IMG/VR virus record: IMGVR_UViG_3300050121_000303
Coordinates: 1-49,743 of that record
Reading direction: 5' to 3' (one strand)
Length of the DNA: 49,743 bases
Origin: a virus
The notes below the pieces were generated by a model. The model worked only from the letters and a program-made list of their open reading frames with translations, was not told where the DNA came from and searched no databases. The stretch's first letter is position 1. Each line of letters begins with the position of its first letter. Positions 7,446-45,981 of this stretch are shown here, one piece after another. Made by a program: the position numbers and the translations under genes.

Positions 7446-7646
7446 ATGAAACAGCAGGCGATAACTCAGCATTATTACAAAGAGACGGACTATTATATCC
7501 AGTTGGTGACCGAGGACAAGGAAGCCGCCGAAGTGGCTAAGCTGAACCGCTGGATGGATCAGGTCGGATGGACGTTTGCCATTATAACCGGGCTGGCTTT
7601 CCTGACGGTAGTGGTTGCCCAGTTGGGCATAAGGTTCGGGTGGTAA
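7446..7646 (+). CDS. Single-pass membrane protein
   Basis: A 66-aa protein with a soluble N-terminus (about 38 residues) and one C-terminal membrane segment (about residues 40-62, WTFAIITGLAFLTVVVAQLG). Start ATG after GAGGGGAGCGGAGGG. Small membrane proteins of this type are common in early phage operons; no function can be given. Confidence 0.6.
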   Translation: MKQQAITQHYYKETDYYIQLVTEDKEAAEVAKLNRWMDQVGWTFAIITGLAFLTVVVAQLGIRFGW

Positions 7647-7650
7647 CGCT

Positions 7651-8214
7651 GTGGAACCATATCAATTCAGGCAAAAACAAAGCCTGCCATATGAACAGAA
7701 GATAGCTCATGCGGAAAGAATGGCTCGTGAGTTTTTCGATCACATGGACGGAGACGTATTTTGCAGTGTCGGTGGGCTTGATAGTATCACCTTACTTATA
7801 TTCCTAAGAAAGTATGTTAGCAAGGACATTCCTGGGGTGTCAATATCTACGCTTGAGGATAAGACTATCCAGCGGGTCCACCGGCAATTGGACAATATCA
7901 CCTATTTGAAACCGCTAAAAAGCAAAGTCCATGTCATTCGGGAATTTGGCTACCCTGTCATAAGCAAAATGAAGGCCCGAAAAATCGAACATTTACAAAA
8001 GCCTGATAATCCCAAACAGACATATATTCACGCCATAATGACTGGAGATATGGGGGAGCAAGGCAAGTTTGAACATAGCGACAAAATAAAACTTCCGGAT
8101 AAATGGCTGAGGTTATTTGCAGGCTTATACAACGAACACAGACCTGATCTGGAATGCCAAATTGCCCCCTTCAAAGTTTCCGACAGATGTTGTCCATATG
8201 GGTGCCAGTCCTGA
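7651..8214 (+). pseudogene. PAPS-reductase-like protein, 3' end lost
   Basis: A member of the phosphoadenosine-phosphosulfate reductase/ATP-pyrophosphatase family. The nucleotide-binding loop SVGGLDSITLL (about residues 39-49) replaces the usual SGGxDS, and the family's FKVSDRCC motif appears near the end. Phage members are usually longer (about 250-300 aa); this one stops at 187 aa, five residues after FKVSDRCC. From about 8190 the sequence continues in another frame as a cytosine methyltransferase. The simplest reading is one deletion that removed the end of this gene and the start of the next. Whether the truncated protein still works is unknown. Start GTG at 7651. Confidence 0.75.
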
Positions 8215-42334: not shown

Positions 42335-42820
42335 TTGAGTAACAATAATACTAAATTGACGCCGTACGGAACCTTATATTATGTGGACTCTGCCGGCAGT
42401 CTGGCGGTGCCAACCACTAATTATGTCTTAAAAAACAATTTGTTAGTCCCGACTCCGGTAGATGCAAATGGCAATCCGCTTGTCACGGTAGCTAGCAGAA
42501 GCACTACCGATATAACATTCCACGATGCAGCGGTGGCCCCGGTAGATGGCGCCGTCTTTGATGTGGGCGGCAACAAAACCCTAACCATAGAAATATCTGG
42601 CACGTCCACCAGTAGGACAATTGCTTTTATTGGTCGTGGCCCGAGCGGAGAAGATCGCTATATCGCGGGCGTGAAGTTATCTGACCTTTCAGTCGCGACA
42701 GGGTCAACCGGCGCTGGTGAGCTGTGGCAGTTCGATATAACTGGCTTAACATCTGTCCTGATGAAAGTGCCTGCCGTCGCCGGCGGCAACGTGACCGTAA
42801 AAGGAAGGGCGGTGGCATAG
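42335..42820 (+). CDS. Tail appendage protein upstream of the DGR target
   Basis: A 161-aa beta-rich protein (YGTLYYVDSAGSLAVPTTNY, VGGNKTLTIEISGTSTSRTI, GELWQFDITGLTSVLMKV), reading as one jelly-roll or Ig-like domain. It probably links the target protein to the baseplate. TTG at 42335 lies eight bases after AAGGAG; a GTG at 42326 overlaps that site. Its stop overlaps the next start (TAGTG). Confidence 0.65.
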   Translation: MSNNNTKLTPYGTLYYVDSAGSLAVPTTNYVLKNNLLVPTPVDANGNPLVTVASRSTTDITFHDAAVAPVDGAVFDVGGNKTLTIEISGTSTSRTIAFIGRGPSGEDRYIAGVKLSDLSVATGSTGAGELWQFDITGLTSVLMKVPAVAGGNVTVKGRAVA

Positions 42821-44253
42821 TGGACATTATCTCTTTGGCCTCTTCCATGCGCTATACAGATCAGCGAGTATTGAGCGTCGATAACCGTGCAATTAAAAAA
42901 TACACGGTTAATTTTAGTGGTTCCAATCCAGCCGGGACAAGGGCTGATGACGCAGTCGGCATGGTGGCTGGTGTGGCGGTAGGCTCTGGCGCGGCAGTAA
43001 ACAACTTCGACGCCGTGTCTTTTTTTAACCGCCCTATCTGCTGCGGTAATTTTGACGCAAACGGCGTAATGCACATCAATGCCTATCGAGGCGAACCCGG
43101 TTTTGCCTGGGACGGATCAAACGGAGAATTATGGCATGAGGAAACTCCTTTCTATTGGAAGGGTGATTTACTGACTACCGTCAGCGTCACGGGCACTCCC
43201 TGCGAGGGTTATGAATTGTCTCCGCGATTCCCGAATGGGACAGACAAGCAATACAGTCCGGTGTACTGGATGGCAAGCGTAAATAACGTCGCAACATCAC
43301 GCAGCGGGGTATTCCCAACCTACAACTCCTTAAACGGGCACATGACTGCGGCCAGAACCTACAATGCCACCAAAGCCCACACGGAGACGATGGCCGCTAG
43401 AATGTCTGACTATATTCTGCAGCTGGTCGAGTTCGCGACGAAAGACGTCCAAAACATAATGATGGGTGCGTGTAACTTATCTTACACCGCGTCCCATGTT
43501 GCCACCGTGGCCGAGAACGGCGTAAACCGCATCATTATTGCTAACGCATACGCCGACACATATGTGGTAGGACAGACGATAGCCATTGGCGCGTCCGCTG
43601 GCGACGGTGCTGTATGTGAAAATCGTGTTATAACGACCATTGCCGTTTATGATGCCAATAATAAAGCGATATCTTTTGACGGCGCCGCAGTAAATATTGC
43701 GCTCGGCAAAGTTATCTCCTCTCGTGCCTGGAAAAACGGTGCGACGGATATTATAACAGCCTCCAGCGGATCACCAGTGAGTAATACCAGCGGCAAATAT
43801 CCGTGCATCTGGCGGGGTAAGGTCGACCCCTGGGCAGATGCCTTTAGTGCCATATGCGATATCCTGATACAACAAACAGGGTCGGGTACAACAGGAGATC
43901 CTTATGTTTATACGCCGTATTATCTAAAAGATCCCAGAAAGTACAATGCGGGTACTATCACCGCGGATTACGTAAAGTTAGGGTATACGATCCCCGGAGC
44001 TGATGGGTACGCAGAGACTCTGGGATATGATGCCCGATATAAATTGGCCAGGCTGACTGATGCGATTGGAGCCAGCAGCACGACATATCTGGCAGCATAT
44101 TATTACTACCCGAGATATGCGGTCTGCGTGGCCTTTGTCGGCGGCGGCTGGATCAGCGGGCGTTATTGCTCCCCGGTGTACTTCTACTGCAACAACGCGC
44201 CGTCTTACTCGAACATCAACCGCCTCGCGCGTCATTTTTATAGAATAAAATAA
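42820..44253 (+). CDS. Probable DGR target (variable) protein, receptor-binding tail tip
   Basis: A 477-aa protein with an N-terminal beta-rich region (about residues 20-130) and a C-terminus of C-type-lectin form as in DGR variable proteins: VCVAFVGGGWISG, a run of variable-looking residues, then YCNNAPSYSNINRLARHFYRIK split over residues 456-477. The GG.W and NNAPS.SN blocks are hallmarks of Mtd/TvpA-type ends. It is followed immediately by a DGR-type reverse transcriptase. GTG at 42820 overlaps the previous stop. It probably contacts the host surface. Confidence 0.8.
   Translation: MDIISLASSMRYTDQRVLSVDNRAIKKYTVNFSGSNPAGTRADDAVGMVAGVAVGSGAAVNNFDAVSFFNRPICCGNFDANGVMHINAYRGEPGFAWDGSNGELWHEETPFYWKGDLLTTVSVTGTPCEGYELSPRFPNGTDKQYSPVYWMASVNNVATSRSGVFPTYNSLNGHMTAARTYNATKAHTETMAARMSDYILQLVEFATKDVQNIMMGACNLSYTASHVATVAENGVNRIIIANAYADTYVVGQTIAIGASAGDGAVCENRVITTIAVYDANNKAISFDGAAVNIALGKVISSRAWKNGATDIITASSGSPVSNTSGKYPCIWRGKVDPWADAFSAICDILIQQTGSGTTGDPYVYTPYYLKDPRKYNAGTITADYVKLGYTIPGADGYAETLGYDARYKLARLTDAIGASSTTYLAAYYYYPRYAVCVAFVGGGWISGRYCSPVYFYCNNAPSYSNINRLARHFYRIK
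44090..44253 (+). repeat. Putative variable region (VR) of the DGR
   Basis: The last 54 codons of the target gene. Many codons have the form NNC/NNT at positions flanked by constant GGC, TGG, GCG and CCG codons: ATC AGC, TAT TGC, TAC TTC TAC TGC AAC AAC, TAC, AAC ATC AAC. This is the pattern expected when AAC/AAT codons of a template are mutated. No matching template was found in this window. Confidence 0.6.
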
Positions 44254-44375
44254 AAGTCTTGCGTGCCTAGTTCCTTACCGCTTGGTAAAAATTGTCGTTA
44301 CGGCAGGGATTAGTAAGAGGATGGCCAGCCATCCTGCCCAATATCCTTGAGACTATAAAAAAGATGAGGTTATAT
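44254..44375 (+). ncRNA. Structured spacer between VR and reverse transcriptase
   Basis: A 122-base non-coding stretch where a template repeat would normally lie. It contains hairpins TTACC-GCTT-GGTAA (about 44275-44288) and AGGATGG-CCAG-CCATCCT (44320-44337), plus a distant CTTAC/GTAAG pairing. It does not resemble the VR. It could be the remaining structured part of the TR-spacer RNA that primes cDNA synthesis, or the hairpin required next to VR for homing. Confidence 0.45.
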
Positions 44376-45593
44376 ATGCACTCATTCAATGTAGATGATA
44401 AATTAAAAGACCGTACAATCATCAGGGAAGCTCTTATTAAGACATGTAAAGCCAAAAAGAAAAAGAGAGTTGGCCCCAATAGAAAATACAAACAAGCTCA
44501 ATGCATACTCGCACACCTGAACGAATACACGGAAAAGACACTGGGAATCGTGTTGGCATTTGAGGCCAAGAAGTTGGCCGAGGAACGCGGAGATACTGTC
44601 TCCCCGGAAGTATTAGAAAAATCCTTTGCTCCGCGCAAATGCGTTACTTTTACCACAAAAGATGGACCGGACAAAAAGACCAGGGAAATTAATAGCGTCC
44701 CTTTGTTCCCCGACCAAGTCATTCACCAGTTGGTCATTATAGCGGCGCAACCGGCGTTAATGCGCGGAATGTATGAATATTCCTGTGGCAGCATTCCTGG
44801 CCGGGGTATACATAAAGGAAAGCAATATCTGGAGAAATACATCAACCACCACCTGGAGAACAACAAGGCGGCCATTAAATACGGAGCACAGCTCGACGCC
44901 GAGAAATGCTATCGCAGCTTTGCCCACAGTTATTTAAAAGGGCTGTTAAGGAAGAAGTTCCGGGGCAAATTGTTTCTCTGGATAATCTTTAAAATTATCG
45001 ATAGTTATAATTATGAAATTAGAGATGGTGAAGCTTACGGACTGCCGATTGGGTTCGCAACGAGTCAATGGTTGTGTAATTTTGGAATGACCCCGCTGGA
45101 TCATTTTATTAAGGAGGTACTGGGAGTAGAGTTTTACCTGCGTTATATGGATGATATGATCATCTTTGCCCGTAACAAAAAGAAGCTCCGAGAAGCCGTA
45201 AAGGCTATAGCAGTGTTTCTTGAACCAGTAGGCCTACGAATAAAGCATACCTGGCAGGTTTTTAGGTTTGATTATATTGACCACCAAGGGAGGCGCAGAG
45301 GGCGACCGTTTGACACCCTTGGATTCCGGTTCTTCCGTGATAAATTAATTTTAAGGAAACGGTTGGCGCTGGCGATCAGGAGATCTGTGGCAAAAGTTGG
45401 TAAAACGGGAAAAGGCGTAACCGCCCATGCAGCAAGGTCGCTTATGTCGCGACTGGGTTGGTTGCGGCATTGCGATTCTTATAATTTTTATAACAAGTAT
45501 GTGAAACCGTTTATCGATATTAAATATTTAAAGGAGGTAATTAGAAGTGAAAGCCGAGAGCACAATTATGCCGGATGCCCCGTATACGCTTGA
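44376..45593 (+). CDS. DGR-type reverse transcriptase
   Basis: A 405-aa RNA-directed DNA polymerase. In order: RT motif A with Asp174 in QLDAEKCYRSF, motif B GLPIGFATSQW (about residues 222-232; the SQ form typical of DGR enzymes rather than the QG of group II introns), catalytic YMDD (257-260), WQVFRF and LGFRFFRDKLILRK, and a helical C-terminal thumb with LGWLRHCDSYN. No intron maturase or endonuclease domain. ATG at 44376 lies six bases after GAGG; the frame extends to TTG 44292 inside the spacer, which I do not accept as the start. It overlaps the next gene. Confidence 0.9.
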   Translation: MHSFNVDDKLKDRTIIREALIKTCKAKKKKRVGPNRKYKQAQCILAHLNEYTEKTLGIVLAFEAKKLAEERGDTVSPEVLEKSFAPRKCVTFTTKDGPDKKTREINSVPLFPDQVIHQLVIIAAQPALMRGMYEYSCGSIPGRGIHKGKQYLEKYINHHLENNKAAIKYGAQLDAEKCYRSFAHSYLKGLLRKKFRGKLFLWIIFKIIDSYNYEIRDGEAYGLPIGFATSQWLCNFGMTPLDHFIKEVLGVEFYLRYMDDMIIFARNKKKLREAVKAIAVFLEPVGLRIKHTWQVFRFDYIDHQGRRRGRPFDTLGFRFFRDKLILRKRLALAIRRSVAKVGKTGKGVTAHAARSLMSRLGWLRHCDSYNFYNKYVKPFIDIKYLKEVIRSESREHNYAGCPVYA

Positions 45594-45981
45594 GGATTTG
45601 GGTGGGGATATATGCGCACTTACATTCTACGAAAATATTACAGAGATGCCGGCTGATCCAGGAGTGGAAGACGCAACTAAGTACCAATACGATGAATATC
45701 GATTGGAAGTCAGCAACCGGGATGGCTTAATTGCCAATATTGAGAGCAACCAGTCCGCATGGCTGCAGGCGGCCAAAAATGCTGAGTTCGAAACGTTGGC
45801 CACAGAGGCAAGGGGCAAGCGCGACAAACTACTTACGAAATCAGATAAGTACGCGCTCTCAGACTATCCTATTACGGAGGATCAAAGAGATCTGGTCGCA
45901 ACATACCGGCAAGCCCTGCGCGATGTGCCGGAGCAGGAAGGGTTCCCGTATGAGATTGTTTGGCCTGTTTTAGTTATATAG
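45547..45981 (+). CDS. XkdW/tail fibre assembly chaperone-like protein
   Basis: A 144-aa protein ending with DYPITEDQRDLVATYRQALRDVP and EGFPYEIVWP (contiguous but quoted in parts), a C-terminus conserved in phage tail chaperones of the XkdW/DUF4376 group. GTG at 45547 after AAAGGAGG, overlapping the RT gene by 47 bases, so it is cotranscribed with the DGR. It may fold the target or fibre protein. Confidence 0.75.
   Translation: MKAESTIMPDAPYTLEDLGGDICALTFYENITEMPADPGVEDATKYQYDEYRLEVSNRDGLIANIESNQSAWLQAAKNAEFETLATEARGKRDKLLTKSDKYALSDYPITEDQRDLVATYRQALRDVPEQEGFPYEIVWPVLVI

Follow-up and report, generated by a model that had tools for sequence, protein, structure and literature searches.

The window considered here, a 49,743-bp viral record (IMG/VR IMGVR_UViG_3300050121_000303) taken at its full length, carries an integrase, an S24-type repressor, and replication genes, together with structural genes for terminase, portal, capsid, tail sheath, and baseplate J. 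From this complement of genes, the source of the record is a temperate phage of the contractile-tailed myovirus type. A gene for a ClpP-like SDH-type serine protease (PF01972) occupies the right end of the contig at 48706-49743, downstream of an amidase gene. No near-identical sibling contigs were returned by a search with a window-specific pattern.

The locus of interest lies on the plus strand and begins with a gene at 42820-44253 for a DGR target, a phage tail or receptor-binding-type protein (phrog_17147; phrog_5302, "tail protein") of 477 amino acids with a GTG start. It is 63% identical to the target of the related locus L015, and further relatives are found in L156-L162. The open reading frame stops at 44253 after a run of variable AAY-derived codons, in agreement with the preliminary description, which had read the end of this protein as a variable repeat (VR). 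Two AlphaFold models, which bear on whether the C-terminal domain adopts a CLec fold, were of such low confidence (pLDDT 30 and 37) that they were set aside, and no PDB sequence match was found for the target.

Downstream, an open reading frame at 44376-45593 encodes a DGR-type reverse transcriptase (RT) of 405 amino acids (PF00078, RVT_1, E 1.3e-15; phrog_1423) that contains the GLPIGFATSQ and YMDD motifs. A start at TTG 44292 was considered and rejected, as the ATG at 44376 is likelier and matches the relatives. In profile comparison the best match is the RT of the 8ub7 series (E 7.7e-50), with group II RTs behind it at 1.7e-29. As the nearest relatives also have adenine-biased pairs of variable and template repeats, the earlier assignment of this enzyme to the DGR type, made from its motifs, is borne out. 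The space between the target's repeat and the RT holds an RT-18 RNA (RF03021) at 44276-44363, scoring 52.8 bits against a gathering threshold of 41.3; this is the element that characterizes the lineage, and an Rfam search revealed no second one elsewhere in the record. Beyond the RT lies a conserved neighbor, a gene for a tail-fibre assembly chaperone (45547-45981, plus strand; PF16778, phrog_4912), found at the same position in L015 and in L016.

Canonical organization of the related loci

Relatives of the RT and target were collected from viral and genome collections; surveys with RF03021 of about 700 genomes yielded few loci. Repeats were identified with a detector in which mismatches at template adenines do not count. 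Almost every relative is arranged as target with VR, GC hairpin, a stem clasping the template repeat (TR), TR, RT-18 RNA, and RT. Where the flanks are long enough, the TR is with few exceptions found about 200 bp 3' of the VR and immediately 5' of the RT, and most VR/TR mismatches fall at TR adenines. The loci most informative for the window, L015 (68% RT identity) and L016/L002 (57%), have its gene order and a TR. An Avd open reading frame between target and RT was not seen in any of the relatives read, including L015 and L016/L002. The preliminary description had remarked on the lack of an Avd gene; no Avd-like open reading frame was seen at the locus, but its absence appears usual for the RT-18 RNA-associated DGR lineage to which the window belongs.

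Three structured elements recur around these repeats. A strong GC hairpin follows the VR directly in 41 of 66 intact loci, as compared with 1 of 76 shuffled sequences; in the BPP-1 system, a hairpin downstream of the VR is required for target recognition (PMC3240598). On the other side, the hairpin-bearing element that lies 3' of the TR in almost all loci is the RT-18 RNA itself, for which no paper was found in the open-access literature. Between these is the clasp stem, a covarying stem of 10-14 bp that encloses the TR in L015 and in about 40 other RT-18-associated DGR loci. In L015, the 14 nucleotides just 5' of the TR (GGGATTAGGTGTGC, 7724-7737) pair with 7882-7895, and in the relatives the 3' strand consists of the 14 nucleotides immediately preceding the RT-18 RNA. 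The stem lies outside the Rfam model, whose match starts just after the 3' strand.

The pairing was evaluated in 29 loci in which the 5' strand was anchored by its GGGATT-like start rather than by complementarity. Partners from the same locus pair at 11.5 of 14 positions, compared with 9.4 of 14 for swapped partners. Within a subset of 22 of these loci, from which visibly mis-anchored rows had been removed by hand, 91.9% of cells pair, both sides have changed in 10 of the 14 pairs, and none of 500 shuffles attained the observed values. A best-match search gave z of at least 2 in 84% of 56 intact loci, a figure to be read with the caveat that such a search selects for complementarity. The stem may already have been described for other DGRs. 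With its strong covariation, it is a testable structural element for template presentation in this Avd-less DGR family.

Departures from the canonical arrangement also occur. L032, L048, and L086 were considered as loci without a TR and rejected, as the TR adjoins the RT in each and it is the VR that is not found nearby; for L032 and L048 no VR lies within about 3 kb, so that the target is either remote or absent. In L030 (upstream of 2794), TR and RT-18 RNA are present and the target seems to be without its VR. The TR itself seems to have been depleted of adenines in L127 (minus strand, upstream of 3865) and in L031 (2636-2739), where the 5' half shows it best, as if mutagenized cDNA had overwritten it.

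A single repeat of mixed ancestry

The variable repeat at the 3' end of the window's target gene is a 118-bp segment at 44122-44239, homologous both to the VR (7521-7638) and to the TR (7738-7855) of L015 and alignable with the VR of L016 as well. It is the only copy. An ungapped, adenine-tolerant scan of both strands of the 49,743 bp found no second one, and the best matches of 54 to 61 bases each still carry at least 11 mismatches at positions other than adenine; a TR near-identical to the VR and differing from it mainly at adenines is thus absent from the record, as the preliminary description had reported. The RT-18 RNA, which follows the TR in the relatives, here lies directly 3' of the target gene's own repeat.

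The two flanks of this repeat have different affinities. On the 5' side, identity is 68% to the flank of the L015 VR and 51% to that of its TR; on the 3' side, it is 79% to the TR flank and 50% to the VR flank. The C terminus of the target protein (HFYRIK*) is accordingly encoded by the repeat together with TR-type 3' flank. Comparison of AAY codons with the L015 TR shows the same polarity, as all of the first five are changed but only one of the last five. By comparison, 86% of AAY codons are changed in intact VRs, without polarity, and none of 65 intact VRs has fewer than two changes among the last five. Flanks and codons together argue that the 5' part of the repeat is VR-derived and the 3' part TR-derived, the order necessarily left by any deletion that joins an upstream VR to a TR downstream of it. 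The switch falls after the codon at 44185-44187 and before 44240; its exact place is uncertain because one 3' codon, TAC at 44206-44208, is changed.

Elements that normally lie between the two repeats are missing as well. The GC hairpin downstream of the VR was looked for in the window and is absent. Of the clasp stem, only the 3' strand is present, as an orphan at 44261-44274 (GCGTGCCTAGTTCC, plus strand) identified by the covarying stem of the relatives; a search of the record for its 5' partner returns only 44261-44274 itself, read on the other strand.

The same anatomy recurs in L053 (RT-18 RNA at 2778-2853) and L125 (minus strand, RT-18 RNA at 1086-1159), in both of which the target open reading frame reads into TR 3' flank, no TR is present, and the 5' clasp strand is missing. 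Since the window, L053, and L125 occupy different parts of the RT tree, the event, or an artefact resembling it, has recurred. Other kinds of loss are seen within the window's fibre family. L157 and L158 retain VR and hairpin without TR, RT-18 RNA, or RT, and L156 retains VR and TR while its RT is gone; all that L160 keeps resembles a vestige of the TR 5' element. In L157 (5356-5440) and L158 (1464-1545), a tail-fibre assembly gene directly follows the target with its VR and hairpin. The corresponding region of L156 (5405-5800) holds a truncated RT-18 RNA and, in place of the RT, a short fragment followed by the tail-fibre assembly gene; this fragment resembles the N-terminal part of L156's own target gene (VVQNDFDNVSYFNRPLCC).

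The condition of the window's RT is less easily read. Neither its frame nor its catalytic Asp residues are disrupted, but motif A is altered (LDAEKCYRSF). Among 118 conserved columns tested in about 80 RTs, it has seven residues absent from all others, including I175A and I182F in motif A. The enzyme evolves faster than the L015 RT with each of four outgroups (nominal p 0.004 to 0.047), whereas the window's target is not faster than that of L015 (37 versus 55 unique changes). The RTs of L053 and L125 show no comparable residue changes. A further candidate, F314T, ceased to be unique to the window once L159 was added, which weakened the argument for decay, and the branch of the canonical L161 RT is longer than that of the window's RT; the case for decay of this enzyme is thus suggestive only. 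Synonymous sites are saturated, making dN/dS unusable.

Origin of the fused repeat

These features are probably best explained by a deletion that occurred in the phage itself and removed the hairpin and a clasp strand, leaving the receptor frozen. The locus would have started as a canonical DGR, with target and VR, hairpin, clasp, TR, RT-18 RNA, and RT in that order. Loss of about 220 bp between the direct repeats, from inside the VR to inside the TR, would have left one hybrid repeat that closes the tail-protein gene and at the same time immediately precedes the RT-18 RNA, and would have taken the VR-side hairpin and the 5' clasp strand with it. Most likely, the direct repeats would have recombined, or replication would have slipped from one to the other; alternatively, a mutagenized cDNA may have recombined into the flank on the TR side rather than the VR side, with a product that would look alike. 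The RT would then be left idle, deprived of a proper template and of a proper target, and the receptor-binding protein would stay fixed at its last variant.

Were the phage itself to carry a normal TR, with VR and TR joined during assembly through the sequence they share and the loop between them dropped, the resulting artefact would show the same polarity as a real deletion. The record is a metagenome-type viral contig, and L053 and L125 are likewise metagenome contigs, with RTs that are apparently unimpaired. Exact identity between VR and TR is short, however, with a median of 19 and a maximum of 42 bp over 67 pairs, and assemblies of the same kinds resolve both repeats in nearly all relatives. 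The unusual motif-A residues of the window's RT and its raised rate relative to L015 would also be unexpected in a working DGR. An artefact therefore seems unlikely, though it is the alternative to be taken most seriously.

Two further explanations would keep the locus active. Under one, which appears quite improbable, the hybrid repeat and RT-18 RNA are transcribed together and an adenine-mutated copy homes back to the same place, making the locus a one-copy DGR that acts as its own template. In its favor, an intact RT-18 RNA follows the repeat directly, the RT retains an open frame, adenines remain in the repeat's 3' half, and the apparent adenine depletion of the L031 and L127 TRs suggests that a template can be rewritten; but the 5' clasp strand and VR hairpin are missing and motif A of the RT is altered. 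Such a repeat, were it real, would be a self-consuming hypermutator, exhausting its adenines as it operates. The other, which the preliminary description had raised and which now has very little to recommend it, supposes that a TR on the host chromosome, in another prophage, or in a missing part of the genome serves target and RT in trans. The TR search covered the viral record alone, and remote targets do exist, as L032 and L048 indicate. Against this, the flanks show that the locus once had its own TR and lost it by fusion, the target copy is without the hairpin expected for recognition, and the record holds neither a TR nor a second RT-18 RNA.

Deletion in the phage thus remains the preferred reading, and strong support for the earlier suggestion of a VR and TR collapsed into one copy comes from the VR flank on the 5' side, the TR flank on the 3' side, and the RT-18 RNA that follows the repeat. 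With the VR hairpin and 5' clasp strand lost, the locus probably can neither template nor receive mutagenesis and, to judge from its sequence, is presumably inactive, with an RT that may be decaying. The accompanying claim that the receptor is frozen is a reasonable inference, given that the cis elements for both the template and target roles are gone; the receptor-binding tail protein is probably held in one form. Because the TR that defines a DGR is absent from the record, this DGR-derived locus with DGR parts is classified as an inactivated (frozen) DGR and not as a working member.

Comparison with known systems

No description of a VR::TR fusion was found in the open-access literature, which weakly suggests that such a fusion is new. 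Deletion between VR and TR would offer a phage a simple route to switch off receptor diversification permanently, fixing one variant. Fossils of this type can be diagnosed by an RT-18 RNA without a preceding TR, an orphan clasp strand, and the polarity of the fusion; DGR finders that need a TR/VR pair would miss them.

The nearest systems are the Avd-less phage DGRs with RF03021 represented by L015 (from a Desulfotomaculum MAG), L016, and L159, which have in common with the window a target family, an RT subfamily (57-68% identity), the RT-18 RNA, the gene order, and the downstream tail-fibre assembly gene. They have separate VR and TR, a VR hairpin, and both clasp strands, whereas the window has one fused repeat and the 3' clasp strand only. 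The DGR of Bordetella phage BPP-1 resembles the window in that an error-prone RT, akin to the window's in profile comparison (8ub7 series, E 7.7e-50), stands beside a gene for a phage tail receptor whose variable repeat is 3'-terminal; it differs in having Avd, a separate TR, and a hairpin downstream of the VR (PMC3240598). Loss of the DGR core is itself already known from Treponema denticola isolates, in which orphan DGR targets occur without RT and TR (PMC4891356). In these orphans, as in L157, L158, and the window, the target gene outlasts the loss of the DGR core; in Treponema denticola both RT and TR are gone, whereas in the window the RT and the RNA remain and the TR is fused with the VR.
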